This document shows, one piece after another, positions 31,635 through 52,255 of a stretch of DNA of 64,000 nucleotides (position 1 is its first letter; every line of letters starts with the position of its first letter). The notes under the pieces are model-generated. The model ran no database searches. It was not told where the DNA came from and saw only the letters and a list, made by a program, of their open reading frames with translations. The position numbers and the translations under genes were made by a program. Source of the stretch: Paraburkholderia hospita (GTDB lineage: Bacteria; Pseudomonadota; Gammaproteobacteria; Burkholderiales; Burkholderiaceae); NCBI RefSeq assembly GCF_002902965.1, contig NZ_CP026108.1:496001-560000 (forward strand), written 5' to 3'.

Positions 31635-31706
31635 GCTGAAGTACCCATCAATGGAAGCAGCACCCCTCCGCGTACGCAGCTTCTGTTGCAACCTTTTCGC
31701 ATTGCG
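31635..31706 (-). pseudogene. Tail of an IS5-type element left of the IS21 insertion
   Basis: The bases just outside the IS21 left end (for example QQKLRTRRGAASIDGYFSNL on the minus strand) continue, after removal of the IS21 element, the sequence that follows the IS5-type transposase fragment at 42611-42832. I take it as the other side of the IS5-type remnant into which IS21 jumped. Its outer end is not defined. Confidence 0.4.
31701..31706. repeat. 6-bp target duplication of the IS21-family element (left copy)
   Basis: ATTGCG at 31701-31706 is repeated at 42529-42534, immediately outside the two IS21 termini almost 11 kb apart. This marks both borders as the product of one insertion event. 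Confidence 0.85.
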
Positions 31707-31798
31707 TGCGTATTTCGGCGAACGTGACCGCCGATTTCGGGAACGTGACCGATTCGGCGGGGTTGGGCGTTGCGCGGTGTTGATTGTAGATTTTCTTG

Positions 31799-32566
31799 TT
31801 AGTTCTGGTCGAGTTCGGGCTCCAGGACGCTGGGTTTTGGGGATGACTTTCTGAGGGATTCACCGGTGAGCGTGATCCGGTGATGACGCTGCATGAGACG
31901 GTCGAGCATTGCGTCGGCGATGGTCTCGTCGCCGATCCATCCATGCCAGTGCTCAATCGGTAACTGGCTGGTGATGATGGTCGCCTTTCCGGCCGAGCGG
32001 TCATCGATCATCTCGAGCAGATCGTTTCGGACCATCGCGTCGAGGGGAGCCATTCCCCAATCGTCCAGCAGGAGCACGTCAACGCGGGCGACCTGCAGCA
32101 GCCATTTTGTGAAGCCGCCATTGCCGTGCAGAACGCGAAGCTCCTCGCCAAGTCGCGGCACGCGCAGATACACGGCCGAATGCCCACGCCGGCAAGCGTA
32201 TTGGGCCAGGGCGCACGCGAGCCACGATTTCCCAGCGCCGGTTGGACCGCTGATGAGCAGGCTGTAGCCGGCTTCGACCCAGTCACCGAGCGCGAGACTC
32301 GTGAGTGAGCGCGGATCGACGCCACGGCCAGCGCGCGTGTCGAGATCTTCAATGGCGGCTTGCGGATACTTGAGGCGCGCCTGCTTGAGCAGTCGGGTAC
32401 GACGGCGATCATCACGCCAGCTGGCTTCCCGGTCGACCAGCAGTGACAGGCGTTCCTCGAAGCTCAGGCTGGTCGCACCGGGCTGCGTCAATTGTTCTTC
32501 CAGGCCGTCAGCGAAACCGTCCAGCTTCAGGGTGCGCAGTTGCGTCAGTGTCTGTTGCATCATCAT
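31799..32566 (-). CDS. istB: IstB-like ATPase of the IS21-family element
   Basis: This 255-residue AAA+ helper ATPase has the IstB N-terminal helical region (TLTQLRTLKLDGFADGLEEQ), Walker A ISGPTGAGKSWLACAL, Walker B VDVLLLDDWGMAPL and sensor-like TIITSQLPIEHWHGWIGDET. IstB normally binds DNA and directs the IstA transposase. The gene is intact, but its istA partner is split, so the element cannot move on its own unless IstA is supplied from elsewhere. Confidence 0.93.
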   Translation of the reverse strand: MMMQQTLTQLRTLKLDGFADGLEEQLTQPGATSLSFEERLSLLVDREASWRDDRRRTRLLKQARLKYPQAAIEDLDTRAGRGVDPRSLTSLALGDWVEAGYSLLISGPTGAGKSWLACALAQYACRRGHSAVYLRVPRLGEELRVLHGNGGFTKWLLQVARVDVLLLDDWGMAPLDAMVRNDLLEMIDDRSAGKATIITSQLPIEHWHGWIGDETIADAMLDRLMQRHHRITLTGESLRKSSPKPSVLEPELDQN

Positions 32567-32578
32567 GGTGGGTCTTCT

Positions 32579-33106
32579 TTATTGGTAGTAGCCGGGACCG
32601 CGTACATGCGCGTGGCTCGGGCTGATCCAGTCGGCAGGCGTTGCCACTGCAGCGCGGTCGCGGTTGTTGATCAGGATGTCGCGCACGTGGCGGTAACGGT
32701 GCACGCCCAGCTCCAGTGCTAGCGCACAGGCGGCTTCGAGACGTTCGCGGCCATAGCGACGTGAGAGCGAGAGCAATCCGAGGCACGCCCGATAGCCGTG
32801 TTCCGGATGGCGTTGCTCCTGCAGCAGCCGGGTAACAAGCGCGCCGGTTGCCGCGCCGATCTGCTGTCCCCAATGAATCAGCCGCTGCGGCGTCCATTCC
32901 AGATGAGCGCGGTGCGCCGCCGGCATGTGCTCGACGACGGTGGTGTAGCCGCCTGCGCGGTCGTTGCGTGCGTGGCTGGCGACACGGCGACCTCGATGCA
33001 GCAGTTCGACAGCGCCCGCCGTGATGCGCGCATCGAGCTTGAGACCGACCAGCGCGTGCGGCACGCTGTAGCGGTGTTTGTTGATCTCGACGTGATAGTC
33101 GATGTG
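32579..33106 (-). pseudogene. istA fragment 3 (C-terminal part)
   Basis: The sequence begins at the RIT junction with HIDYHVEINKHRYSVPHALV and runs through ELLHRGRRVASHARN and YRHVRDILINNRDRAAV to the stop at 32579. This is the C-terminal DNA-binding and IstB-contact part of IstA. It is 12 bp from istB, as in intact IS21 elements. The frame continues to 33277 only because it reads into the RIT terminus. Confidence 0.88.
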
Positions 33107-33132
33107 TTCTGTGGTCGACCACAGAACACATC
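33101..33132. repeat. 32-bp perfect palindrome at the left RIT junction
   Basis: Bases 33101-33116 are the exact reverse complement of 33117-33132, with TCGA at the centre. The palindrome joins the istA target GATGTG (33101-33106) to the RIT terminus and ends with CACATC, the inverted target sequence. The right RIT end (36554-36559) has a single GATGTG and no such palindrome. Confidence 0.85.
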
Positions 33133-33214
33133 TTGTGTGGCCAAGCGATTTCTGTAGCCTTGGCGCTGATGAGCTACTTCCGGCGGCGATCGTCGCAGTC
33201 TGAAGACCACAGAA
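33127..33214 (+). repeat. RIT left terminal inverted repeat (88 bp)
   Basis: The sequence starts CACATCTTGTGTGGCCAAGC and is the inverted copy of 36472-36559 with five mismatches. It contains several sub-repeats (TTCTGTGGT-like) that may be recombinase binding sites. Confidence 0.9.
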
Positions 33215-33275
33215 GCAGGTCTCAATTTGAGGAGCAATATTACCTTTCCGCTTTCTTGCGGAAGGAGGACTCCTC

Positions 33276-34526
33276 ATGTTCGATCAACTTTTCAAGGACC
33301 CGGCTGCAGTTGCCCGTCACACCACCGCGCCGCTCTATCGCGAGCGGGTTCGATACCTCGAGTACATGCAACGCCATCAGGCTTCCCGCAAGACCTTGAT
33401 TCGCAATGCAACGTACATGATGCGGATAGGAGAGGCATTGAGATGGACGTTACCGGATTCCTTCACCGCTGCTCAACTTGGCAAGCTCGCAGATCGATGG
33501 CGTAACCGTCGAGCGACTAATCCTACCCGCACCGATGGGGAAGCATCCCGAACGGCGTATGTATCGACAGCGACGAACTGGATGCGTTTTCTTGGACGAC
33601 CGCAAGCGTTGACCGGCGAGCAGCCTGGGTCGGAACAGATCGCGGCCTACGCTCGCTTCATGCGCGACGAGCGTAATCTCTCTGCACTAACAATTCGCAC
33701 GCGTAGCGGTCGCGCCTCCGAGTTTCTCCGGCTCGCCAATGCCGAGGGCTATGACATCCGTCGACTTGACTGGAAAGCCATCGACCTCATTCTTGCCTCG
33801 AAGGGAAGCCGCGATGGTCTGACGCGCGCGTCGATGCAAACCTATGGCTACAACATCCGCAGTTTCATCCGCTACTTGGAAGAACACGGGCAATGCCGAC
33901 CCGGTTTATCGTCGTCGATACAACCGCCGCGGGTATATCAAGGCGAGGCACTACCTGCCGGTCCGTCCTGGCCGGAAGTCCTTCGTGTCCTTGAGAATCT
34001 CGAGGGGAACCGGCCCGGCGCGATTCGTGATCGCGCGATCTTGATGATGTTCGCGGTGTACGGATTGCGTGTGGCCGAAGTGCGCCGACTGTGTCTCGAC
34101 GATTTTGACTGGCAGGAAGCGCTTTTTCGCGTGCATCGTTCCAAGCAAAGCCCACATGTTGCTGTGTTTCCATTGGCCGGCGACGTAGCGGATGCTCTTG
34201 CGAGGTATCTGCGCTTTGTTCGAGTGAAGTCTGATCGGCGGGAGCTGTTTCTCCAGTTGCGTAGTCCATATCAACCACTTGGCAGCAGCGCGATCTGGCA
34301 GGTTGTGAATCGTCAGCTGAGGCCAATGGATCTGTTGATCAAACACAAGGGACCGCATTCCTTGCGGCACGCGTGTGCGACCCAGCTTCTCGGACGAGGT
34401 CTAACCATGAAGGAGATTGGAGATTTCCTCGGACACTGCCATCCCGCCACCACGGCGTTATACGCGAAGGTCGATATCAACGGCTTGCGCCAGGTGGCTG
34501 ACGTTGATCTCGGGAGGTTTCTATGA
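33276..34526 (+). CDS. RIT recombinase 1 (tyrosine recombinase)
   Basis: This 416-residue tyrosine recombinase is the first of the trio. A strong AAGGAGGA site precedes ATG 33276. The N-terminal core-binding domain covers roughly 60-230. The catalytic domain has the Arg box MMFAVYGLRVAEVRRLCL, box II PHSLRHACATQLLGRG (His-x-x-Arg-His) and the nucleophile box FLGHCHPATTALYAKVD with His and Tyr. All catalytic residues are present. The stop overlaps the next start by 4 bp. Confidence 0.92.
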   Translation: MFDQLFKDPAAVARHTTAPLYRERVRYLEYMQRHQASRKTLIRNATYMMRIGEALRWTLPDSFTAAQLGKLADRWRNRRATNPTRTDGEASRTAYVSTATNWMRFLGRPQALTGEQPGSEQIAAYARFMRDERNLSALTIRTRSGRASEFLRLANAEGYDIRRLDWKAIDLILASKGSRDGLTRASMQTYGYNIRSFIRYLEEHGQCRPGLSSSIQPPRVYQGEALPAGPSWPEVLRVLENLEGNRPGAIRDRAILMMFAVYGLRVAEVRRLCLDDFDWQEALFRVHRSKQSPHVAVFPLAGDVADALARYLRFVRVKSDRRELFLQLRSPYQPLGSSAIWQVVNRQLRPMDLLIKHKGPHSLRHACATQLLGRGLTMKEIGDFLGHCHPATTALYAKVDINGLRQVADVDLGRFL

Positions 34527-35464
34527 AGCTCGCTGACGCAATCTCACTGTATGTGCAGGTTATCCACGCCAGTGGATGTAAGGGCGATAGTATTCATGGC
34601 GTGCTTGTCTTGTTTGCCAAGTACGTGGGAGGTGAGCGGGAACTCAGTTCGATTTCGCAGACGGAGGTTCGAGCATTCCTCGATGGGAATCTACCGCTCA
34701 GCCGCTATTGGCATCGCAAGCATTCTGCTCTCGTGGGCTTCTTCCGCTTTTCGCTCGCACGCGGCTTGGTATCTGCCATTCCTCTACCTGCCAGGACACC
34801 ACGTTGCTATCAGGATTTCCAGCCCTATGTGTATTCCGAGGACGACGTCGACCGACTGATCGCTGCGCTTGAGTGTGCCCGCGCGACGCCGATTGAAGCA
34901 CGCACCCTTCGGGTCCTCGTGCTGCTTTTATACGGGACCGGCCTACGACTGTGCGAAGCACTGCACCTATGCCTCGCAGATGTGGATTTGCCGCAGCAGA
35001 TGCTCACGGTTCGCGACACGAAGTTTTACAAGACACGATGGGTTCCAATTGGAATGCAACTCGTCCACATCCTGCACGAATATATGGTGGCGGTTCACAC
35101 ATCCATCAGCATCGAAACTCGCGACGACACGCCACTGTTTGTCCGTCGTGACGGTGGTCGGCCAACCGGGAGCGGCATCCGACGCGCATTTGCAAGGCTC
35201 AGGTCAAAGGCTGGCGTTCGGCGCAACGACGGCGCCCGGTATCAGCCGCGTTTGCACGATATGCGGGCAACGTTCGCTGTACATCGCTTGACCACCTGGT
35301 ATCAGCAAGGTGCCGACGTGCAGCGACTTCTTCCTCTGCTGTCGACCTATCTCGGACACGCGAGCATAGCGGCCACCCAGGTCTATTTGCCTATGTCGCC
35401 AGAACTTCTCGTGGAAGCGTCGAACCGTCTCGGACGATACGTCGCGCTGGAGAGCCAGTCATGA
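34523..35464 (+). CDS. RIT recombinase 2 (tyrosine recombinase)
   Basis: A 313-residue tyrosine recombinase with Arg box LLYGTGLRLCEALHLCL, box II RLHDMRATFAVHRLTTWY (His-x-x-Arg, with Ala where many have His) and nucleophile box YLGHASIAATQVYLPM. It is translationally coupled to its neighbours by ATGA overlaps on both sides. In RIT elements the three proteins belong to separate subfamilies kept in a fixed order, and this one fits the middle position. Confidence 0.92.
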   Translation: MKLADAISLYVQVIHASGCKGDSIHGVLVLFAKYVGGERELSSISQTEVRAFLDGNLPLSRYWHRKHSALVGFFRFSLARGLVSAIPLPARTPRCYQDFQPYVYSEDDVDRLIAALECARATPIEARTLRVLVLLLYGTGLRLCEALHLCLADVDLPQQMLTVRDTKFYKTRWVPIGMQLVHILHEYMVAVHTSISIETRDDTPLFVRRDGGRPTGSGIRRAFARLRSKAGVRRNDGARYQPRLHDMRATFAVHRLTTWYQQGADVQRLLPLLSTYLGHASIAATQVYLPMSPELLVEASNRLGRYVALESQS

Positions 35465-36465
35465 ACGATCTGAACCTGTTGGCCCCATGGATTAAACGCT
35501 TCCTGGCCGATTACCTCGTCACGGTAAGATGTGTGGCGCGAAGCACGCAATTGAGCTACCGCGACACGCTGGCCAGGCTCATTCGCTACGCGGCGGGCGA
35601 ACTACGAACGCGTCCTGACCTGCTGAAGCTCGACGACATCAGCAGAGACCTGATCAACCGATTTCTCCCAACAGCGACGACCGGTAAAGCTGTGGGCGCG
35701 AGAACCCTCAACCAACGTCTCGCGGCCATACATAGCTTCGCGCGATTCGTGGGCGAATACGGACCAGAGCACCTGGAATGGTCCGGGCGTGTCTTAGCGA
35801 TCCCATTCCGTAAGTTCGCACGCCCCGAGATTCCCTACCTTGAGAAACCCGAGATGGATGCACTTCTTGCTGCGGCAGACTTACGAACGGCACAGGGAAG
35901 GCGTGACCATGCGCTGCTGATGTTCCTGTACAACACTGGTGCGCGAGCGACAGAAGTTGCACAGGTTAAGGTTGAGGATCTGCAATTGCAGTCGCGAGAT
36001 GGCAACGGCAACGCGTTTGTCAGATTGCTGGGCAAAGGCAACAAAGTTCGATTATGTCCCCTCTGGCCGCAAACGGCAGCGGAGATCTCGGCACTGATTG
36101 TTGGTCGGCCAGCTGACCAGCATGCATTCTTGAACCGGCGTGGTACGTCGATTACTAGATTCGGAGTCCACTCAGTGGTGGAGCGCTGCGCGAAGCGCAT
36201 CGAGGCGAGGTTCCCTGCGGTCGGTGCGAAGCGGGTCAGCCCGCACACGATTCGCCATACAACGGCCACCTACCTCCTGCGCTCGGGTGTCGACATCAAC
36301 ACCATCCGCGCGTGGCTCGGCCATGTGTCGCTCAACACCACCAACATTTACGCACAGATCGACCTGGAGATGAAGTCGCGTGCCTTGGCGCAACTGCAGC
36401 CATCCGGCGAGGCGCCGCGGCGCCGAATGGAATCCGACCTGCTGCGATTCCTGCGCTCACTTTAA
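35461..36465 (+). CDS. RIT recombinase 3 (tyrosine recombinase)
   Basis: This 334-residue recombinase has a SAM-like N-terminal domain ([20 protein letters not shown]), Arg box [18 protein letters not shown], box [21 protein letters not shown] and nucleophile box [17 protein letters not shown]. The frame ends seven bases before the right inverted repeat. Catalytic residues are complete. Confidence 0.92.
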
Positions 36466-36471
36466 CTGGAT

Positions 36472-36559
36472 TTCTGTGGTCTTTAGACTGCGAGGATCTC
36501 CGCCGGAAGCAGCTCATCAGCGCCAAGGCCACAGAAATCGCTTGGCCACACAAGATGTG
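36472..36559 (-). repeat. RIT right terminal inverted repeat (88 bp)
   Basis: Inverted partner of 33127-33214 (five mismatches). The outermost GATGTG at 36554-36559 is also part of the istA codons that follow, so the exact element edge is uncertain by six bases. Confidence 0.9.
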
Positions 36560-36804
36560 AACCGTCACTGTCTTGAAGCGCGCGAGCTCATAGGGCTGTG
36601 CCGGCAGCGGCTGCAGTGCCGGCGCGTCCAGCTGGGCGAATGCGCTGGCGCGACATCCCGGCAGCTTCTGGAACGGCCTCTCATTCAGGTTCTTGAGCAG
36701 CGGGCGGATCGCCTCATTGACCGAGTGGACCGACTCAAACCGGTGATGACGCAGCCGCGCCATGATCCAGCGTTCGACGACCTGGACCGCAACCTCTACC
36801 TTCG
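36560..36804 (-). pseudogene. istA fragment 2 (middle part)
   Basis: Minus-strand reading gives [20 protein letters not shown], then [20 protein letters not shown] and [19 protein letters not shown]. This is the middle of IstA. It joins fragment 3 across the RIT element and fragment 1 (ending YRPQDKA) across the serine-recombinase unit. The join QDKA-KVEVAV matches the usual IstA sequence. Confidence 0.88.
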
Positions 36805-37125
36805 GTTTCTCGCAAGTCAGCAACTGTCTGCCATGAGGAACGTCGCGTAGTCAAAGGCGCGTCCTTCGAGATTACCCACCCATTTCATCCAGCGCGTGGA
36901 AATCACTTTGTCCTGGTGAGTCGCAAGCAGAACTGGGGTGAAGATCGCGTGATGTATTACGACGCACACAAGCGTCTGTGCTCGGTGCTGGCATCTTGGA
37001 CCGATGTCCCGGAGCCAGATCTGTTCGCGCAGGCCTCCGCTGGACATTCCTGGTTTAGAACTGACGATCTGCTTCGATTGCGTGCGCTCGTCGACGATTT
37101 ATTGGGAGTGCGCGATGTCAAATAA
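36805..37125 (+). CDS. DUF5372 family protein, start unclear
   Basis: The open frame from the unit border gives [40 protein letters not shown], then [20 protein letters not shown] and [20 protein letters not shown], the DUF5372 pattern. No start codon is in frame at the N-terminus. ATG 36833 is in another frame and stops after five codons, so a one-base indel may have broken the start; GTG 36916 is the first in-frame start. DUF5372 genes typically lie at the head of recombinase units like this one. Function is unknown. Confidence 0.7.
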
Positions 37126-37251
37126 ATTTCGCCGTTCACGTAAGGATAAATACGCCGATATGGAGATGACGCTGGTTCTGACACATCAAGGATATCTCGG
37201 TTTTTACGGGGAAATAACCGCATCGTATATAATAGGCCAGATCACGAAGAT

Positions 37252-37282
37252 ACTTGACACATCAAGTGGCGCGGCGTACTTT
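37252..37282 (+). promoter_or_regulatory. Promoter with palindromic operator before the HTH gene
   Basis: TTGACA (37254-37259) and TACTTT (37277-37282) are 17 bases apart, 32 bases before the HTH start. The -35 lies inside the palindrome ACTTGACACATCAAGT (37252-37267), a candidate site for autoregulation. Confidence 0.5.
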
Positions 37283-37313
37283 AATTTCCATTACGTCAAC
37301 GAGAGATCATGTA

Positions 37314-37766
37314 ATGACCAAGCCACCGTCAAAGCGCGATCGCCTACGCGAACTTGGTATTCTCAATCCTCATCCCGACCGAATACGGGCGCCATGGTTT
37401 CGATCGGGCGATTTCTTCGATCCCGACGATCTTGTTCAGGTCAAGTACGAGATGTTGCGTCATGTTCGGGTCGATGGCGCTTCCAAGGCCGAGGCGGCCG
37501 CCCTGTTCGGAATGTCCAGACCTACGTTCTATCAGGCAGAGAGCGCCTTTGCGCGCGAGGGACTGCCAGGATTGCTGCCAAAACAGCGTGGACCCAAAGG
37601 CGCACACAAACTCAACTCGGTGGTCATGGCGTTCATCGAGGAACGTCTGCAGCAAGACAGCAGCATTCGCGCTCGCGCGCTTGCGCAGGAAGTCGAAACC
37701 TGGCTGGAGCTTTCGGTCCACCCACGCAGTATCGAACGTGCGTTAGCACGCAAAAAAAAACCGTAG
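37314..37766 (+). CDS. Helix-turn-helix protein of the recombinase unit
   Basis: The 150-residue protein from ATG 37314 (MTKPPSKRDRLRELGILNPH) contains a homeodomain-like HTH near residues 50-85: YEMLRHVRVDGASKAEAAAL, then FGMSRPTFYQAESAFAREGL. A second helical part follows (MAFIEERLQQDSSIRARALA). It ends RALARKKKP directly after nine A residues. A -1 shift on that run would extend it by ~95 residues into the next frame. It may regulate the unit or assist the recombinase. Confidence 0.75.
   Translation: MTKPPSKRDRLRELGILNPHPDRIRAPWFRSGDFFDPDDLVQVKYEMLRHVRVDGASKAEAAALFGMSRPTFYQAESAFAREGLPGLLPKQRGPKGAHKLNSVVMAFIEERLQQDSSIRARALAQEVETWLELSVHPRSIERALARKKKP
37752..37760 (+). other. A9 run, candidate -1 frameshift site
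   Basis: The HTH gene ends CGC AAA AAA AAA CCG TAG. The nine A residues (37752-37760) form a slippery sequence. A -1 slip continues as ACC GTA GAG into the downstream frame, which has no start codon of its own nearby. Confidence 0.5.
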
Positions 37767-38047
37767 AGGATTCGCCTCAATTCCCTCTCCCATCGTCCGC
37801 GCTTGCCCATTACGAAGTGCTACGGGCCGACCTGCTCGGCGCAGGTCCTAAGTCAGAAGGCCACGCCGCCATACGCTTTCACGGCCTGTTGCACGGGCTG
37901 GCGATCCAACGCCCGGATGCTTCGCGCATCGAAGCTCCCGCTTCAACCGTGCCTGCTTCCAACTCAGTGCGGGATAACGGCGCGCTTGTTCGCGTGCTCG
38001 CCAACCTCGTACTGCGCACCCACGAGGAGCTTGCCCATGTCTACTAA
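37760..38047 (+). CDS. Hypothetical protein in the -1 frame, possibly the C-terminus of a frameshift fusion
   Basis: This frame reads SALAHYEVLRADLLGAGPKS, then HAAIRFHGLLHGLAIQRPDA and LVRVLANLVLRTHEELAHVY. It is well-formed and ends overlapping the recombinase start by 11 bp. No ATG or GTG with a ribosome site begins it; the first in-frame GTG is internal (VLRADLL). It is therefore either expressed by -1 frameshifting from the HTH gene at 37752-37760, or the two were split by a homopolymer error. A fusion product would have about 244 residues. Confidence 0.55.
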   Translation, partial: TVEDSPQFPLPSSALAHYEVLRADLLGAGPKSEGHAAIRFHGLLHGLAIQRPDASRIEAPASTVPASNSVRDNGALVRVLANLVLRTHEELAHVY

Positions 38048-38810
38048 CTCCGCTCTGAAGGTCACCGCAGAACATCTGCGGCGTGATGCGTTCCTCTACG
38101 TTCGACAGTCGTCGCTTCGTCAGGTGTTCGAGAATACCGAGAGTACGAAGCGGCAATATGCACTGCGCGATCGTGCCGTTACGCTCGGGTGGCCGATCGA
38201 ACGCATTCACATTGTCGATAACGATCTCGGCATGTCCGGTTCCAGCGCCGAAGGGCGAGATGGCTTTCAGCATCTGGTCGCAGAGGTCGCCAATGGTCAC
38301 GCCGGCATCGTGCTGGGATTGGAGGCGTCGCGCCTTGCGCGCAATAACGCAGACTGGCATCGCCTGATCGAACTTGCATCGCTCACACAAACTTTGATTT
38401 GCGACGAAGATGGAATTTACGATCCCGGCCAATTCAATGACCGTCTTTTATTGGGCTTGAAGGGCGCCATGAGCGAGGCCGAACTTCATGTTCTCAAAGG
38501 GCGGCTACAAGGTGGTATCAAGAACAAGGCACGCCGTGGCGAACTGGAAGTGCCGTTACCCATCGGGCTTGTTTACCACCCGAACGGCTCAGTGGTTCTC
38601 GATCCTGATCAACAGGTCCGAGGCGCGCTGCAGTTGCTATTCGATACGTTTCGGCAGGCTGCGTCAGCTACAGCCACGGTCAAACGATTTCGCCAGGAAG
38701 GCTGGCTGTTTCCGCGTCGCATCCACCGGGGGATTGGCAAGGGAGACCTGATTTGGGGACCGCTGGAACACTGTCGCGTTATCCAGATATTGCACAACCC
38801 CCGTTATGCC
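38037..38810 (+). pseudogene. Large serine recombinase, N-terminal part (split by IS4-type element)
   Basis: From ATG 38037 (MSTNSALKVTAEHLRRDAFL) the resolvase domain has the catalytic Ser in YVRQSSLRQVFENTESTKRQ, then GMSGSSAEGRDGFQHLVAEV, LGLEASRLARNNADWHRLIE and MSEAELHVLKGRLQGGIKNK. The recombinase domain begins around residue 170. The frame is cut after HNPRYA at the 9-bp duplication 38802-38810. The start overlaps the upstream frame. The remainder resumes at 40292. Confidence 0.85.
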
Positions 38811-40282
38811 CATTTCATTACACACAACTCATTCGTCAAGTTCTCGTGCGTACCTGAGTCCGGCGGCGAAATCCATCACGCGCTGCAGACCTTGCCAGAT
38901 GGTCTTGACTCCGGGTTCGCCATCGCCTTTGCGCGCCAGGAAGCCACCCAGCATGGCGACCAGACGCACGGCCTCATTCAGTCGCGGTGACGTCTTGGGT
39001 GGTTTCTTTTTGTTCAGAATGTATGCCGCGCGCCATTCATCGCGCTCGAACAGCAGTTGCGCGTCAAGGTCCGGGCAGGTTCGACCCAGTCGCATCAGCC
39101 GGGCGATACGCCACGCGACCACCATGTACAGCGCCAGGGCGCGCTCAAGCCGCGCCTTCGATGTGAGCTGCAACGCCTCGACCCGACAGCCGTTCTTGAG
39201 TACGTGAAAGAATAGTTCCACCTCCCAGCGCGCCCGGTACCAGTCAATCAGCTGCGCCGCCGCATCAAGGTCGTTCGCATCGCGGTTACTCAGCAGCCGC
39301 CATTCGAGCGGCTTGACGCCTGCCGGCGGGTCGAGTTCCCGGGCGACGATACACGTGACGTTCACCACGTCGCCTGCAGCATCAGGCAGCGCGACACGCT
39401 GCGCCCACACCTGCTGGCGGACCGTACGCGCCGGCTGAGCCTGACGGGCCGCCAGCGTAAAGTGAATTGTGCCCAAGGGCTTGGCCGCCGTAACCTTGTT
39501 CCACAGTTTGCCGCCTTCGGGCAGGGTGCGATTGTGTTGCGAGCGCAGCAGCCAGTCGGCCGGGTTGTCCAACTCGCGTGCCTTGAGCATCAACGCCATG
39601 ATGTCCGACTCCCGGTCAGCCACATAGACGAGCCGCGTGGCAGGCAGTGCCGCAGCCTGTTCGGCAACCCGCTCATATCCTTCGACCCAGCGAATGCTTT
39701 CCTTGAGGCCCGCACGCACACCATCCGCGCCTTTGGGTTCGCGTGCCCACATGAAGGCGTCAAGCACGCCCAGCGGCTCGCGCGATGGCGTGACCGCGTA
39801 AGTCGGGTGCAGATACATCCCGCGCTGGGCCTCATACGACAGCGGCCCCAGACCCGTAATCGTCTGGCCGTTAAAGTCCAGCTCCGTTGTGTCCTGGATG
39901 CATAGCACCACTTCGCAAGCTCGCATCCGCTCGACCGAGCTTTGCCAGTGGGGCGCCAGAATATCGCGCCAGTCCAGTTCATCCTGGGCCAGAAACCGGT
40001 ACGCCCCGGCCGTCTCCGCCCAGCCGCCGCATGCGTTAGGTATGCTTGCCGTCGGCTTCTGCGCGAGCCGCTCCGCCAGCAGCACGGCGCGCGCGTTCAG
40101 ACGCTGATCACCCAGGTCGATGTCCTTGAATTCTGCCGCTGCCCAGCTCGCTGCCTCTTGCTTCATGCGCCGCCCAAAATGCGACAGTAAACGACACTCC
40201 GAAGCAGTTTACAACCCACCCCGCTATGTCATTGACCGTAAACGACTTTCTCGGCGCCTACAGACTTATGTGTAATGGGATG
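38811..40282 (-). mobile_element. IS4-family (IS50-like) insertion sequence, 1472 bp
   Basis: The element is bounded by a perfect 9-bp target duplication CGTTATGCC (38802-38810 and 40283-40291). The ends are inverted repeats: CATTTCATTACACA on the left and CATCCCATTACACA read inward on the right. It interrupts the serine recombinase. The perfect duplication and intact transposase point to a recent insertion. Confidence 0.92.
38829..40166 (-). CDS. IS4-family transposase (Tn5/IS50-like)
   Basis: This 445-residue transposase starts ASWAAAEFKDIDLGDQRLNA, as Tn5-type transposases do. Landmarks: CIQDTTELDFNGQTITGLGP with the first catalytic Asp, VYVADRESDIMALM with the second, and LIDWYRARWEVELFFHVLKN with the Y-x6-E-type Glu region. 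The frame is full length and undamaged, so the enzyme is probably active. Confidence 0.93.
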   Translation of the reverse strand: MKQEAASWAAAEFKDIDLGDQRLNARAVLLAERLAQKPTASIPNACGGWAETAGAYRFLAQDELDWRDILAPHWQSSVERMRACEVVLCIQDTTELDFNGQTITGLGPLSYEAQRGMYLHPTYAVTPSREPLGVLDAFMWAREPKGADGVRAGLKESIRWVEGYERVAEQAAALPATRLVYVADRESDIMALMLKARELDNPADWLLRSQHNRTLPEGGKLWNKVTAAKPLGTIHFTLAARQAQPARTVRQQVWAQRVALPDAAGDVVNVTCIVARELDPPAGVKPLEWRLLSNRDANDLDAAAQLIDWYRARWEVELFFHVLKNGCRVEALQLTSKARLERALALYMVVAWRIARLMRLGRTCPDLDAQLLFERDEWRAAYILNKKKPPKTSPRLNEAVRLVAMLGGFLARKGDGEPGVKTIWQGLQRVMDFAAGLRYARELDE

Positions 40283-40291
40283 CGTTATGCC

Positions 40292-41601
40292 GGGGCCTTC
40301 GTATACGGTCGCACACGCGGAGTATATCGTCAGGGACGCAAATACTTCGGGCTTAAGGTTGACCGAGAGAATTGGCAGGTGTTAATCCAGAATGCACATC
40401 CCGGCTTTATTGATTGGGACGAGTTCGAACGCAACCAGGCGACGCTTAAGCAGAATTTAACGGGATTCGGGCGCGATCGACGAGGCAGCATGCCACGTGA
40501 GGGCGTTGGGCTCCTGCAGGGGCGCGTCGTGTGCGGAGTGTGTGGCGCACGCATGCGTGTACGGTATCAGGTCGTCGGTAATAAACTCGAACCCTACTAT
40601 ATGTGCACGGAGAACCCAGTGCGCCGTGCCAGCAAACCCTGCCAATCGGTTCGCGGAAGTGCCATCGACGACGCGATAGGCTCGCTTCTTTTAGAGAGTG
40701 TCGCACCGGCCGCTCTCGAGGTCGCGCTAGCTGTCGAAGACGAGATCTCTGGGCGCGTCAAACAGGCCGCCGATCAACGTCAGAACCAACTGGCCCGAGC
40801 TCGCTACGATGCCGAGCTCGCGCGTCGTCGGTATATGAGTGTCGATCCCACCAACCGGCTTGTCGCTGACACGCTCGAGGCGGACTGGAACGAACGTCTG
40901 CGTGTGCTCGACGGATTGCAACAGGAGAACGAGCGACTCCAGAACGCCGATCACAAGCTGTTAAGCAGCGATGCGCGAACCAAGATCCAGTCGCTCGCCG
41001 AAGACTTCCCTCGTGTTTGGAATGATCAACGAGTCGTTCCGCTCGAGCGCAAGCGCATGGTCGCTTTGCTCATCGAAGACGTCACCCTGGTCAATCCGAA
41101 CGCGTCGCAATCCATGTACGCTTTCGCGGCGGCCGAACTACCTCATTGGAGATCGATAAGCCCAAGCCTATCGCACTGATTCGAAAGACGCGGCCGGAAG
41201 TCGTTTCGAAGATCGACAAACTTCTCGAAACCGGCTCGGACCGACAGGTCGCCGAACAGCTTAATGCACTCGGCTATACAAACTGGAAAGGCGAAACGTT
41301 CACGCACAAGAAGGTCTACCTCGTACGCACTGCGTACCGGCTCAAGAGCCGGTTTGAGCGCCTGCGCGAACGCGGCATGTTGACGGCCAACGAACTCGCC
41401 GCACAACTCGGGGTCTGTCCGACCAGCATCCACCTATGGGCCCGGCGCGGGCTGTTGCGTCAGCATCGCTACGGAAATCTGCATCGCTGTCTCTATGAAC
41501 CCGTCGGCGACGTCGTCCTGGTCAAAGGCCAAGGCGGCCGCTACAGTTCGACACAACCGACGTTTATCGCTGTTCCACCAACCGCACAAGGTGCAATATG
41601 A
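40292..41601 (+). pseudogene. Large serine recombinase, C-terminal part with an additional frameshift
   Basis: After the IS4-type element the frame resumes GAFVYGRTRGVYRQGRKYFG. It then shows a zinc-ribbon/recombinase region (GRVVCGVCGARMRVRYQVVG, then YMCTENPVRRASKPCQSVRG) and a coiled coil. It drifts out of frame near 41095: one frame ends at 41179, while the other reads AIHVRFRGGRTTSLEIDKPK, then IALIRKTRPEVVSKIDKLLE to TGA 41599-41601. A one-base loss close to AACGCGTCGC explains it. The C-terminal part (LGVCPTSIHLWARRGLLRQH) is a small HTH normally attached to these recombinases. Confidence 0.8.
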
Positions 41602-41609
41602 AGCGTACG

Positions 41610-42360
41610 CCTTGTCCTGCGGACGATATACGCGTGCAGGAAGGAATGACGTGCCGTAGTGACGCGCAAAGTCCAGCACGGTGTCGCTGGCGCGAGGTTC
41701 ATAGCGGTCGGGATCGGCAATCATCGCGCGCGGGTTATCCGGCACGATCAGCTGCGGCACGCCACCATAGAAGGTCAGCGCACGTGCGATGCCGCCCAGC
41801 CAGTCCTCCATCGTTTCGGCTGGCGTCGCGCATGCGAACGTGTAACTCGATGCGCCCATGGCTGCCACGAAGATGTGCGCGCGGCGTCCAGTCGTCAGCG
41901 GCAACGTGGGGCCGGCGAAGTCGACAAACAGTTTCTCGCCGGCGCGGTGAATCTGACGCATCGAGCGCTTCAGGCGTTTCGTGAACGCCTTGTAGTGCTC
42001 GCAGAACTGCGTATAGCGGTAGGTCTGCCGGTCCGCGAACTCGGCCTGGTACTCCTCCCACAGCAACGTAAGCGTCATGCCCTTGCGAAGCAGCTCCTGG
42101 TGGATGCGTCCGTAGTCGGGCTGGGCGTAGCCTGCTGGCCCCGTGGGCTTGCCGAGGAGCCGCCGCTCGAGGTCGCCTTCATCCATATCGCAGGCGCTTG
42201 CCCAGTCCAGCCCGGCGGCACCGGCCAGTCCTATGTACTTCGTGACCACGCCCTTGGATATGCCCAGTGACGCGGCGATCCGATCGTGCGAGAAACCGCC
42301 GTCGAATTTAAGTCGTAAAACGTCGTTGATCATGCGCATGTTCATCCGGTGCGCGGGCAT
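41610..42360 (-). pseudogene. istA fragment 1 (N-terminal part)
   Basis: Starting at 42360 (MPAHRMNMRMINDVLRLKFD) this fragment has the IstA HTH (RIAASLGISKGVVTKYIGLA), the start of the integrase core (EKLFVDFAGPTLPLTTGRRA, catalytic Asp in VDFAG) and the second core Asp in LIVPDNPRAMIA. It ends at TSFLPARVYRPQDKA, where the serine-recombinase unit begins. The open frame runs on to 41434 inside that unit. Confidence 0.88.
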
Positions 42361-42528
42361 GCTCTCTCCGGCAAAAGCCGGCGAGCATAGCCCGCGTAGT
42401 TGATGTCATGCGCAACGCCAATCCTGCCTTCCGGTCCGCTCGGTCACGTTCCCGAAATGCCCGGTCACGTTGCCGAAATCGCCGGTCACCATCCCGAAAC
42501 GGCCGGTCACGTTCGTCCGAAATACGCA

Positions 42529-42534
42529 ATTGCG
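42529..42534. repeat. 6-bp target duplication of the IS21-family element (right copy)
   Basis: ATTGCG, the partner of 31701-31706. Confidence 0.85.
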
Positions 42535-50685: not shown

Positions 50686-52255
50686 CAAATGTCGTACCTC
50701 CAGCTAAATAGAAATGTCGGGTTTTGCTGTGCTTTTTCTTATGTTTTTGGGGTGGGGCGGCGCAGCCGCCCCCCGTTCCCTCATGCCGTTGGCGCTGACT
50801 TCAAGAATGACCTTGTTGATGTCGGCAACCTCAATGGCCCGCTGTTTCTTCAGCCCGATGAGCGCCTGCTTCGCGCGAACTTCTTCACCGCAATGCGTAC
50901 GTGACGGCGAGCCCGAGGCGCGGCGCTCATCACGCATGGCCTGCACGTGCCTCGCAACCTCCAGGGCGCTGGCCAGCCGCTTGTTCTCAAGCTCCGCGCC
51001 CTGATCAATGCGCGTGATGCGATCGTATTGCCGGTAAGGCAGCGTGACACCGCCGGCCTGGATCTCGATGACGCCATCGGGATATTCAACGACCTCGACG
51101 TATTCATGGATCAGCCCACGGCAGACAGGCGTGTCATCCAGCAGGTACATCACGCGGTCGTACTGCACGGTCAGCGCATTGGAGACCTTGCGTGGCACGC
51201 GATACGCGAGGATCTGTCGCAGTGCCTCGTCGGCCCGCAGGGGCCGGTGCGCGTCGTAATCGCTCTTCGGTGGCTTGCCGAAACGCCGGTTGAAATCGGC
51301 GATGAAGGAGGGCGCATACGCATTGGCCGCCTCCCGCGTGCTGATCCCGCGCAGCCGCAGCTCCTTCACGAGGCGATCCTGCAGCGTCAGGTTGGCCCGC
51401 TCGACGCGTCCCTTGGCCTGACTCGTGTTCGCACAGAATGCGTCGATGTTGAGTTCGTACAGCGCGCGGCCGAACTGCGTGACACCTTTGCCCACCGTCT
51501 CCGAGCGCTGCTTCACGTAAAAGACGCTGGCCTTGTCGCTGTAGAACGCGACCGGCTTGCCGTGCGCGTCCAGATACTTCGCCAGCGCCTCAAAGTAGCT
51601 GAAGGTCGACTCCGTCGCCGTGAAGTGCAGCGCCATCAGCCGCCCGGTCGCGTCATCGATGAACACCAGCAGCGTGCAGGCGGGCGCCCGGTCCTCAAAC
51701 CAGCGGTGATCGCTGCCGTCGATCTGGATCAGCTCGCCCAGACACGCGCGGCGGTTACGCGGCTGGTACACCTTTGGCGCACGTTCCCGGCGCGGAATCC
51801 ACAGCCCGGCAGCCCGCATCAGCGTGCGTACCGTCTCGACGGCCAGTTCGATGCCATGACACTCCCGCAGCTTCTCGCACGCCAGCGTCGGCCCAAAATC
51901 CGGGTAGCGCTCGCGGATCAGCGCCAGCGCCCGCTGTGCCTTGCCGGCAGGAAGCTGATGGTTGCCCGGACGGCCTCGCTTGCCCGACACCAGTCCGGCC
52001 ACGCCGGCCGCCTCATAACGCCGCACCAGCCGCTCCACCTGGCGCACGCCCAGTCCCAGCCGTTCAGCCGCCTGGCCCGGCTTGAGCCGGGCCTCGGTCA
52101 CGGCCTGAATGACCTTGAACCGGTCCACCTCGCGCATCGTCATCGTGATCGTCCCAGTCGCATTCATCGCCGGCGCTCCCTGAGGAATGTCCGGCGCTCA
52201 AACTACCTAAAACACGACATTTCTATTTAGCGGAAACCCGACATTTCTATTTGGG
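50686..52255 (-). mobile_element. ISNCY-type insertion sequence with doubled terminal repeats
   Basis: Each end carries two copies of an AAATGTCG-containing repeat. The left end has AAATGTCG at 50688-50693 and AAATAGAAATGTCG at 50706-50719. The right end has the inverted forms at about 52215-52229 and 52239-52253. The transposase gene fills the centre. Exact outer edges are uncertain by a few bases. Confidence 0.72.
50704..52167 (-). CDS. ISNCY-family transposase
   Basis: This 487-residue transposase has an N-terminal HTH (VIQAVTEARLKPGQAAERLG, then LGVRQVERLVRRYEAAGVAG) and an integrase core with Asp in GELIQIDGSDHRWFEDRAPA, Asp in VAFYSDKASVFYV and Glu in SQAKGRVERANLTLQDRLVK. A beta-rich C-terminal part follows. 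The frame reads through the left terminal repeat at its 3' end. No damage is seen. Confidence 0.88.
   Translation of the reverse strand: MNATGTITMTMREVDRFKVIQAVTEARLKPGQAAERLGLGVRQVERLVRRYEAAGVAGLVSGKRGRPGNHQLPAGKAQRALALIRERYPDFGPTLACEKLRECHGIELAVETVRTLMRAAGLWIPRRERAPKVYQPRNRRACLGELIQIDGSDHRWFEDRAPACTLLVFIDDATGRLMALHFTATESTFSYFEALAKYLDAHGKPVAFYSDKASVFYVKQRSETVGKGVTQFGRALYELNIDAFCANTSQAKGRVERANLTLQDRLVKELRLRGISTREAANAYAPSFIADFNRRFGKPPKSDYDAHRPLRADEALRQILAYRVPRKVSNALTVQYDRVMYLLDDTPVCRGLIHEYVEVVEYPDGVIEIQAGGVTLPYRQYDRITRIDQGAELENKRLASALEVARHVQAMRDERRASGSPSRTHCGEEVRAKQALIGLKKQRAIEVADINKVILEVSANGMRERGAAAPPHPKNIRKSTAKPDISI

Follow-up and report, generated by a model that had tools for sequence, protein, structure and literature searches.

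A serine-recombinase unit at the catalytic-glutamate motif of DDE transposases, in a nested IS21 element of Paraburkholderia hospita

A 64,000-nt stretch of Paraburkholderia hospita DNA (contig NZ_CP026108.1, positions 496,001 to 560,000; here the window) belongs to a 0.97-Mb contig in a genome of 11.5 Mb and is rich in insertion sequence (IS) elements. Parts of its first 20 kb have their best matches in chromids of P. hospita (95.7%, 35% covered) and Paraburkholderia sp. PGU19 (98.4%, 21% covered). One of the IS elements, an IS21 element, carries two inserts in its transposase gene istA, a RIT element and a small unit encoding a large serine recombinase, and the unit itself carries an IS4-type element, so the nest described in a first-pass annotation of this DNA is borne out. 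We propose that the unit is, very probably, a small mobile element that integrates through a TT crossover into the DNA of the catalytic-glutamate motif of DDE transposases. Its presence in istA is not by chance.

Results

In the unit's recombinase subclade, 32 distinct insertions have a readable flank, and every one is in a DDE transposase, 19 in IstA, 9 in IS3 and 4 in ISNCY. The offset from the crossover core was analysed in 30 loci, with the motif of the C-side edge used to find that edge. Where it was located, glutamate stands four residues after the core codon in 19 of 19 loci, or 16 of 16 distinct insertions. The same holds for L145, making 17 of 17 distinct, and L113, L143 and L144 read by eye concur. 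The core codon is for lysine in IstA and for asparagine in IS3.

An intact IS21 on a Burkholderia aenigmatica plasmid (L016) served as the reference for IstA. In the rows aligned to it, the N-terminal piece stops at 248–253 and the C-terminal piece begins at 249–250. Its E254 aligns with E233 of the IS5376 IstA, given as catalytic in the available text of PMC10122671, and codon 250, four earlier, contains the core. Seven IS3-type pieces scanned end at positions 311–317 of the NF033516 profile (NCBIfam). As to the half-sites, CCGC precedes the core in 20 of 22 rows and the weaker AAGGCGAAGGT follows it in 13 of 22.

The window's genome holds five relatives of the recombinase, with targets in IstA (2, being both copies of the composite described below), IS3 (2) and IS481 (1). 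Elsewhere in the window, an uninterrupted ISNCY-type transposase gene at 50704–52167 contains the motif (K252, E256) and is an unoccupied candidate site for the unit.

The unit has the following parts in the window.

36809..41613, + strand: serine-recombinase unit with the IS4-type element inside; TT core at 36807–36808 and 41612–41613
36916..37125, + strand: DUF5372 gene, position transferred from L011
37314..37766, + strand: helix-turn-helix (HTH) gene
38037..38810, + strand: large serine recombinase, N-terminal part
40283..41601, + strand: large serine recombinase, C-terminal part, with a frameshift near 41092–41098

Intact relatives consist of the DUF5372 gene, the HTH gene and a 694-aa large serine recombinase. 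The recombinase has resolvase, recombinase and zinc-ribbon domains (in the intact relative L011, with which the window parts agree) and a MerR-like HTH at its C-terminus. HTH proteins of this kind are common, as at least 7,069 relatives were found when 8,000 candidates were scored, and DUF5372 appears in 0 papers of the open PubMed Central (PMC) subset. An open reading frame at 41146–41601 was considered as a further gene and rejected, because it is the C-terminus of the recombinase after the frameshift.

In group II intron units (L118 2183–2855 and related loci), the DUF5372 gene is accompanied by a DUF6788 gene replacing the HTH gene, and the accessory genes may correlate with the target. 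In Rhizobium sp. T1473 (L146, 1–1139 and 2501–4585), a unit directly adjoins a further recombinase gene from its own clade, which looks like the insertion of one unit beside another.

In P. phymatum STM815, two istA genes on separate replicons, with unrelated flanks, carry 3,327-bp units of 100% identity, and the match starts and stops at TT. Caballeronia SBC2 and SBC1 likewise share a 100% identical unit bounded by TT. Since identical units sit in different istA genes, they establish the unit ends, the TT core common to both ends and the target, and the recent movement. They also replace the shared dinucleotide CG and the span of about 36805–41609 of the first-pass annotation by TT and 36809–41613. 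Judged from these sequences, the unit is mobile and has moved recently, and its target gene, target residue and core are clear.

Moreover, two sites of Caballeronia SBC2 have the same IS21 with its unit, 5,950 bp at 100% identity, between 5-bp duplications of CCTGG at one site and GCCAT at the other. Hence the IS21 whose istA is split by the unit evidently still transposes, presumably with the IstA supplied from elsewhere.

The host IS21 element and its insertion site are laid out as follows.

31701..31706, no strand: ATTGCG, left IS21 target duplication; one copy only in the empty site L010
31707..42528, − strand: IS21 element including all inserts, 10,822 bp
31799..32566, − strand: istB (Pfam IstB_IS21, NCBIfam IS21 helper ATPase)
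32579..33106, − strand: istA C-terminal piece, by alignment to the intact L016
36560..36808, − strand: istA middle piece; catalytic Glu codon 36794–36796, core codon (Lys) 36806–36808
41614..42360, − strand: istA N-terminal piece, by alignment to L016
42529..42534, no strand: ATTGCG, right IS21 target duplication; one copy only in the empty site L010
42611..42778, − strand: C-terminal tail of an IS5-type transposase, the remnant entered by IS21; NCBIfam IS5 34.9 bits, below the cut-off

The element has the istA-like DDE transposase and istB-like ATPase of the IS21 family, as well as terminal inverted repeats (TGCGTATTTCGG / CCGAAATACGCA, at 31707 and 42528) and a short target duplication. The flanking ATTGCG had been noticed before, and an empty site (L010) has now been found elsewhere in the same genome, in a paralogous stretch on contig C1 with flanks 92.7% and 96.6% identical and one ATTGCG between them. 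As to the remnant taken for IS5-type, only a weak call can be kept, as its 55-aa tail scores 34.9 bits against a model cut-off of 140 and falls short of IS5 family membership.

L016 is 89–93% identical to the window element and collinear with 31703–33106, 36554–36811 and 41612–42528. The alignment runs end to end, with overlaps of 6 bp (GATGTG) at the RIT and 5 bp at the serine-recombinase unit, so the three istA pieces are collinear as previously claimed. This alignment of the separate pieces serves the purpose of an in silico rebuild of the gene. Four further istA genes of the window's genome score above the cut-off, covering the whole profile with no interruption.

The other insert in istA is the RIT element.

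33101..33132, no strand: perfect 32-bp palindrome at one RIT edge, including the target GATGTG
33107..36559, + strand: RIT insertion, with GATGTG at 33101–33106 and 36554–36559
33127..33214, no strand: left inverted arm, 88 bp
33276..34526, + strand: ritA, tyrosine recombinase
34523..35464, + strand: ritB, tyrosine recombinase
35461..36465, + strand: ritC, tyrosine recombinase
36472..36559, no strand: right inverted arm, 88 bp

It is assigned by three adjacent, overlapping and co-directional tyrosine recombinases, a terminal inverted repeat with a palindrome and a size of ~3.5 kb. The arms are 94% complementary. Among the 10 RITs examined, a clear palindrome lies beside ritA in 4 and beside ritC in 3; L090 has an imperfect one beside ritC that scores no better than chance, and two have no palindrome. 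The closest RitC outside the window's genome is 54% identical (398 family genomes, E up to 1e-100).

A preference of RITs for istA was sought and not found, as only 1 of the 8 other RITs is in istA, at a different position. The rest are in istB (1), IS66 tnpC (1), a Tn3 transposase (1) and an acyl-CoA ligase gene (1), beside a group II intron reverse-transcriptase gene (2) or unassigned (1). With such varied genes, the idea of a bias towards istA was dropped. The first-pass annotation held that two recombinase systems chose the same gene, which stands for the unit, whose subclade was found only in transposase catalytic motifs, and is not supported for the RIT.

The serine recombinase of the unit is split in the window by the IS4-type element.

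38802..38810, no strand: CGTTATGCC, IS4-type target duplication, first copy
38811..40282, − strand: IS4/Tn5-type element, transposase 38829–40166
40283..40291, no strand: CGTTATGCC, IS4-type target duplication, second copy

Its transposase has Tn5-type domains and scores 380 bits with the NCBIfam IS4 model (cut-off 160). The 20-nt inverted ends are 80% complementary and the 9-bp duplication CGTTATGCC is exact. Short inverted ends and a 9-bp duplication are those of Tn5-type IS4 elements, and the split with a perfect duplication is confirmed.

The composite recurs at C4:228 kb, 300 kb from the window copy. This second copy has the RIT and the unit at identical bases, an open recombinase frame and no IS4-type element; no target duplication flanks it. 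Because the RIT and the unit are at the same bases, both predate the duplication of the composite, and because the second copy is free of the IS4-type element, this insertion is the latest event, barring precise loss. Of the relative order of events that had been read from the nest, the late IS4 stands and the order of RIT versus unit is not fixed.

The two copies differ also in that the RIT interior of the second is inverted while the palindrome keeps its side. All five sites of difference between the arms are exchanged relative to the window copy, so the crossover of an inversion would fall within the outer 29 bp. The RIT interiors differ at 12/3433 positions and the remaining composite at 3/5923 plus one indel (p = 0.0008). 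The RIT interior either escaped gene conversion while inverted or arrived separately.

The relatives were gathered from named genomes (15 loci), 398 family genomes (33 matching at 1e-120), 398 phylum genomes (11 at 1e-80) and plasmids (376 of 72,556 records, 706 places at 1e-80, with 22 recombinase places taken plus five others). Loci with the same insertion were merged: L009 with the window copy and L031 and L034–L036; L014 with L013; L060, L061, L062, L063 and L066 with L015, L039, L038, L040 and L045, respectively; L070 and L111 with L046; L079, L080 and L118 with L078; L098 and L110 with L032; L099 with L033; L100 with L037; and L105 with L104.

Some target assignments are weaker. L116 (IS66 tnpB) was assigned from its position between tnpA and tnpC, L117 from the annotation of the record, L124 by eye with weak recombinase-model scores, and L122, L106, L130 and L082–L087 from local tblastn and flank reading. 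L103 and L126 are where an IS91-type transposase gene begins, in or beside it.

Recombinases more distant than the subclade are in or at other mobile-element genes. Two motifs of the group II intron reverse transcriptase account for 7 and 4 rows, IS66 TnpB for 3, TnpC for 6 and IstB for 4, of which two are at Walker A. An IS481/IS3 motif lying further downstream and IS91-type elements have 2 rows each, and one row is in a serine recombinase of the clade itself. The last is L124 5052–5528 on a Rhodovastum atsumiense plasmid, where a clade member is apparently inside a serine recombinase of the same kind. Overall, 61 of 70 distinct rows are in or at mobile-element genes; nine are elsewhere or unassigned (L047, beside ssb, and L048, L049, L050, L052, L077, L102, L112 and L127). 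The evenly spaced plasmid sample (L114–L130) has 16 of 17 in or at such genes.

Mapped onto a tree of 64 recombinases, the targets require 19 label changes, where shuffled labels average 42.9 (L103, L116, L126 and L130 were labelled unknown, and L046 and L109 omitted as too short). Five labels with at least two rows need one change each. Targets do switch, since IstA needs 5 changes, IS3 4, TnpC 3, ISNCY 2 and IstB Walker A 2.

Discussion

A mechanism can be proposed in which the recombinase would recognise the catalytic-motif DNA, cut both partners at TT and insert a circular unit. With TT in the lysine or asparagine codon four residues before the glutamate, the break would leave the N-terminal half without the last catalytic residue. 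As the motif is conserved for protein reasons, one enzyme could find sites in several IS families. As the IS ends are untouched, the broken IS and its passenger could be moved by the transposase of another copy. Integration would be performed by the unit's recombinase, alone or with the two small proteins, and the unit may be able to excise again.

For the IS21 in the window, the split element would be moved by IstA and IstB made elsewhere. It would also have taken the RIT at GATGTG, with an interior invertible via the arms. The composite would have been duplicated with the RIT and the unit present, and one copy would later have gained the IS4-type element.

Several explanations compete with a choice of target by the unit. 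That both elements are in istA merely because transposons fill much of the plasmid replicon would suit the IS density of the window, and for the RIT chance could be at work, as other RITs are spread over several genes; for the unit, it is refuted because 16 of 16 distinct insertions with located edges share one codon offset across IstA, IS3 and ISNCY, and such a chance nest is scarcely credible as a whole. Almost as improbable is a single entry of the unit into istA, followed by inheritance along with IS21, which would make its site a product of descent. The window copy and P. phymatum pBPHY02 do share IS21 and unit at 93–96% and could come from a single event, yet a 100% identical unit in P. 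phymatum istA genes only about one third identical as proteins refutes this generally, and relatives are also in IS3 and ISNCY genes. A third account, that the clade hits any strongly conserved coding DNA and that mobile elements dominate through the sampling of plasmids and IS-rich genomes, is unlikely and still deserves weight. One row by ssb and 8 more unassigned fit it, as does the common targeting of single conserved genes by large serine recombinases, with competence-gene enrichment reported in the accessible part of PMC10083194. It is countered by the 16 of 17 in the evenly spaced sample and the 61 of 70 overall at mobile-element genes, counts that cover recombinases of this clade.

Other points weigh against the proposed target choice. 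Four distinct subclade loci (L039, L044, L071 and L075) have no readable flank, and the left edge of the unit was not found in 11 of the 30 loci of the offset analysis (L041, L065, L067, L068, L069, L074, L076, L081, L101, L113 and L114). The relatives were gathered by similarity and not by random draw. Within the subclade, the target switches among IstA, IS3 and ISNCY (5, 4 and 2 label changes), and a four-row lineage beside it in the tree (L047–L050) was not found in transposases. The RIT inversion, for its part, could also come from homologous recombination or separate insertion. A member of that neighbouring lineage lies by a single-stranded DNA-binding protein gene (L047 3511–4176), an exception to the mobile-element rule.

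On balance, we lean slightly to a wider reading, a large clade specialised on mobile elements in which each subclade reads one conserved motif, disarms the element and rides it. The candidate motifs would be the DDE glutamate, IS66 proteins, the IstB Walker A, the group II intron reverse transcriptase and the own-clade recombinase. If true, the members of this serine-recombinase clade would act as hyperparasites and naturally hold transposons in check.

Large serine recombinases, RITs and nested IS elements are all known already. The phage integrases, the integrases of integrative conjugative and integrative mobilizable elements, CcrA/B/C and XisF have the same domain order and a two-base core, and the unit recombinase is similar to the XisF and Ccr models with scores far below their cut-offs. 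The unit differs from them in its three genes without other cargo, its DDE glutamate-motif target and its C-terminal MerR-like HTH. IS21 elements such as ISAzo4 have istA/istB, inverted ends and direct repeats as in the window, but here istA is in three pieces.

Integrases are best known for residing in tRNA and housekeeping genes. Inteins and homing introns resemble the unit in their choice of insertion site, the catalytic motif that a protein family conserves best. They leave the host gene unharmed by splicing out, whereas the unit breaks it. Among the matches listed from open PMC titles and abstract starts, none is a serine-recombinase element aimed at transposase motifs. The multi-targeting large serine recombinases, in the accessible part of PMC10083194, resemble the unit in many sites per enzyme family and, in one example, a TT core; they use relaxed or AT-rich sites and belong to a DUF4368 clade, whereas the unit uses a transposase coding motif.

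The unit lineage uses transposase active-site DNA, a sequence that different IS families conserve and that occurs many times over. It provides recombinases whose natural sites are in transposase genes, a tangible example of predation among mobile elements, and a means to order insertions.

The RIT interior was probably inverted relative to the palindrome by the RIT enzymes. It is quite possible that homologous recombination via the 88-bp arms, or a second RIT insertion, gave the orientation difference without these enzymes; the 94% complementary arms and the excess of interior differences (12/3433 versus 3/5923, p = 0.0008) favour this, whereas the confinement of the crossover to the outer 29 bp adjoining GATGTG disfavours it, as does the palindrome, which keeps its side here and is by ritA or by ritC in other RITs.

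The RITs of PMC3414803, in its accessible part, have the same three overlapping tyrosine-recombinase genes, ~3.5 kb, inverted repeat and palindrome, and one is inserted in a Tn6049-like transposase gene; that part makes no mention of an interior inversion between copies with a fixed palindrome. The two RIT orientations in one genome are a handle on the three-recombinase mechanism, which the same text leaves open. The window's genome has a further pair of RITs placed back to back (G000 C4:650500-662500, L096), one of which cuts a Tn3-type transposase.

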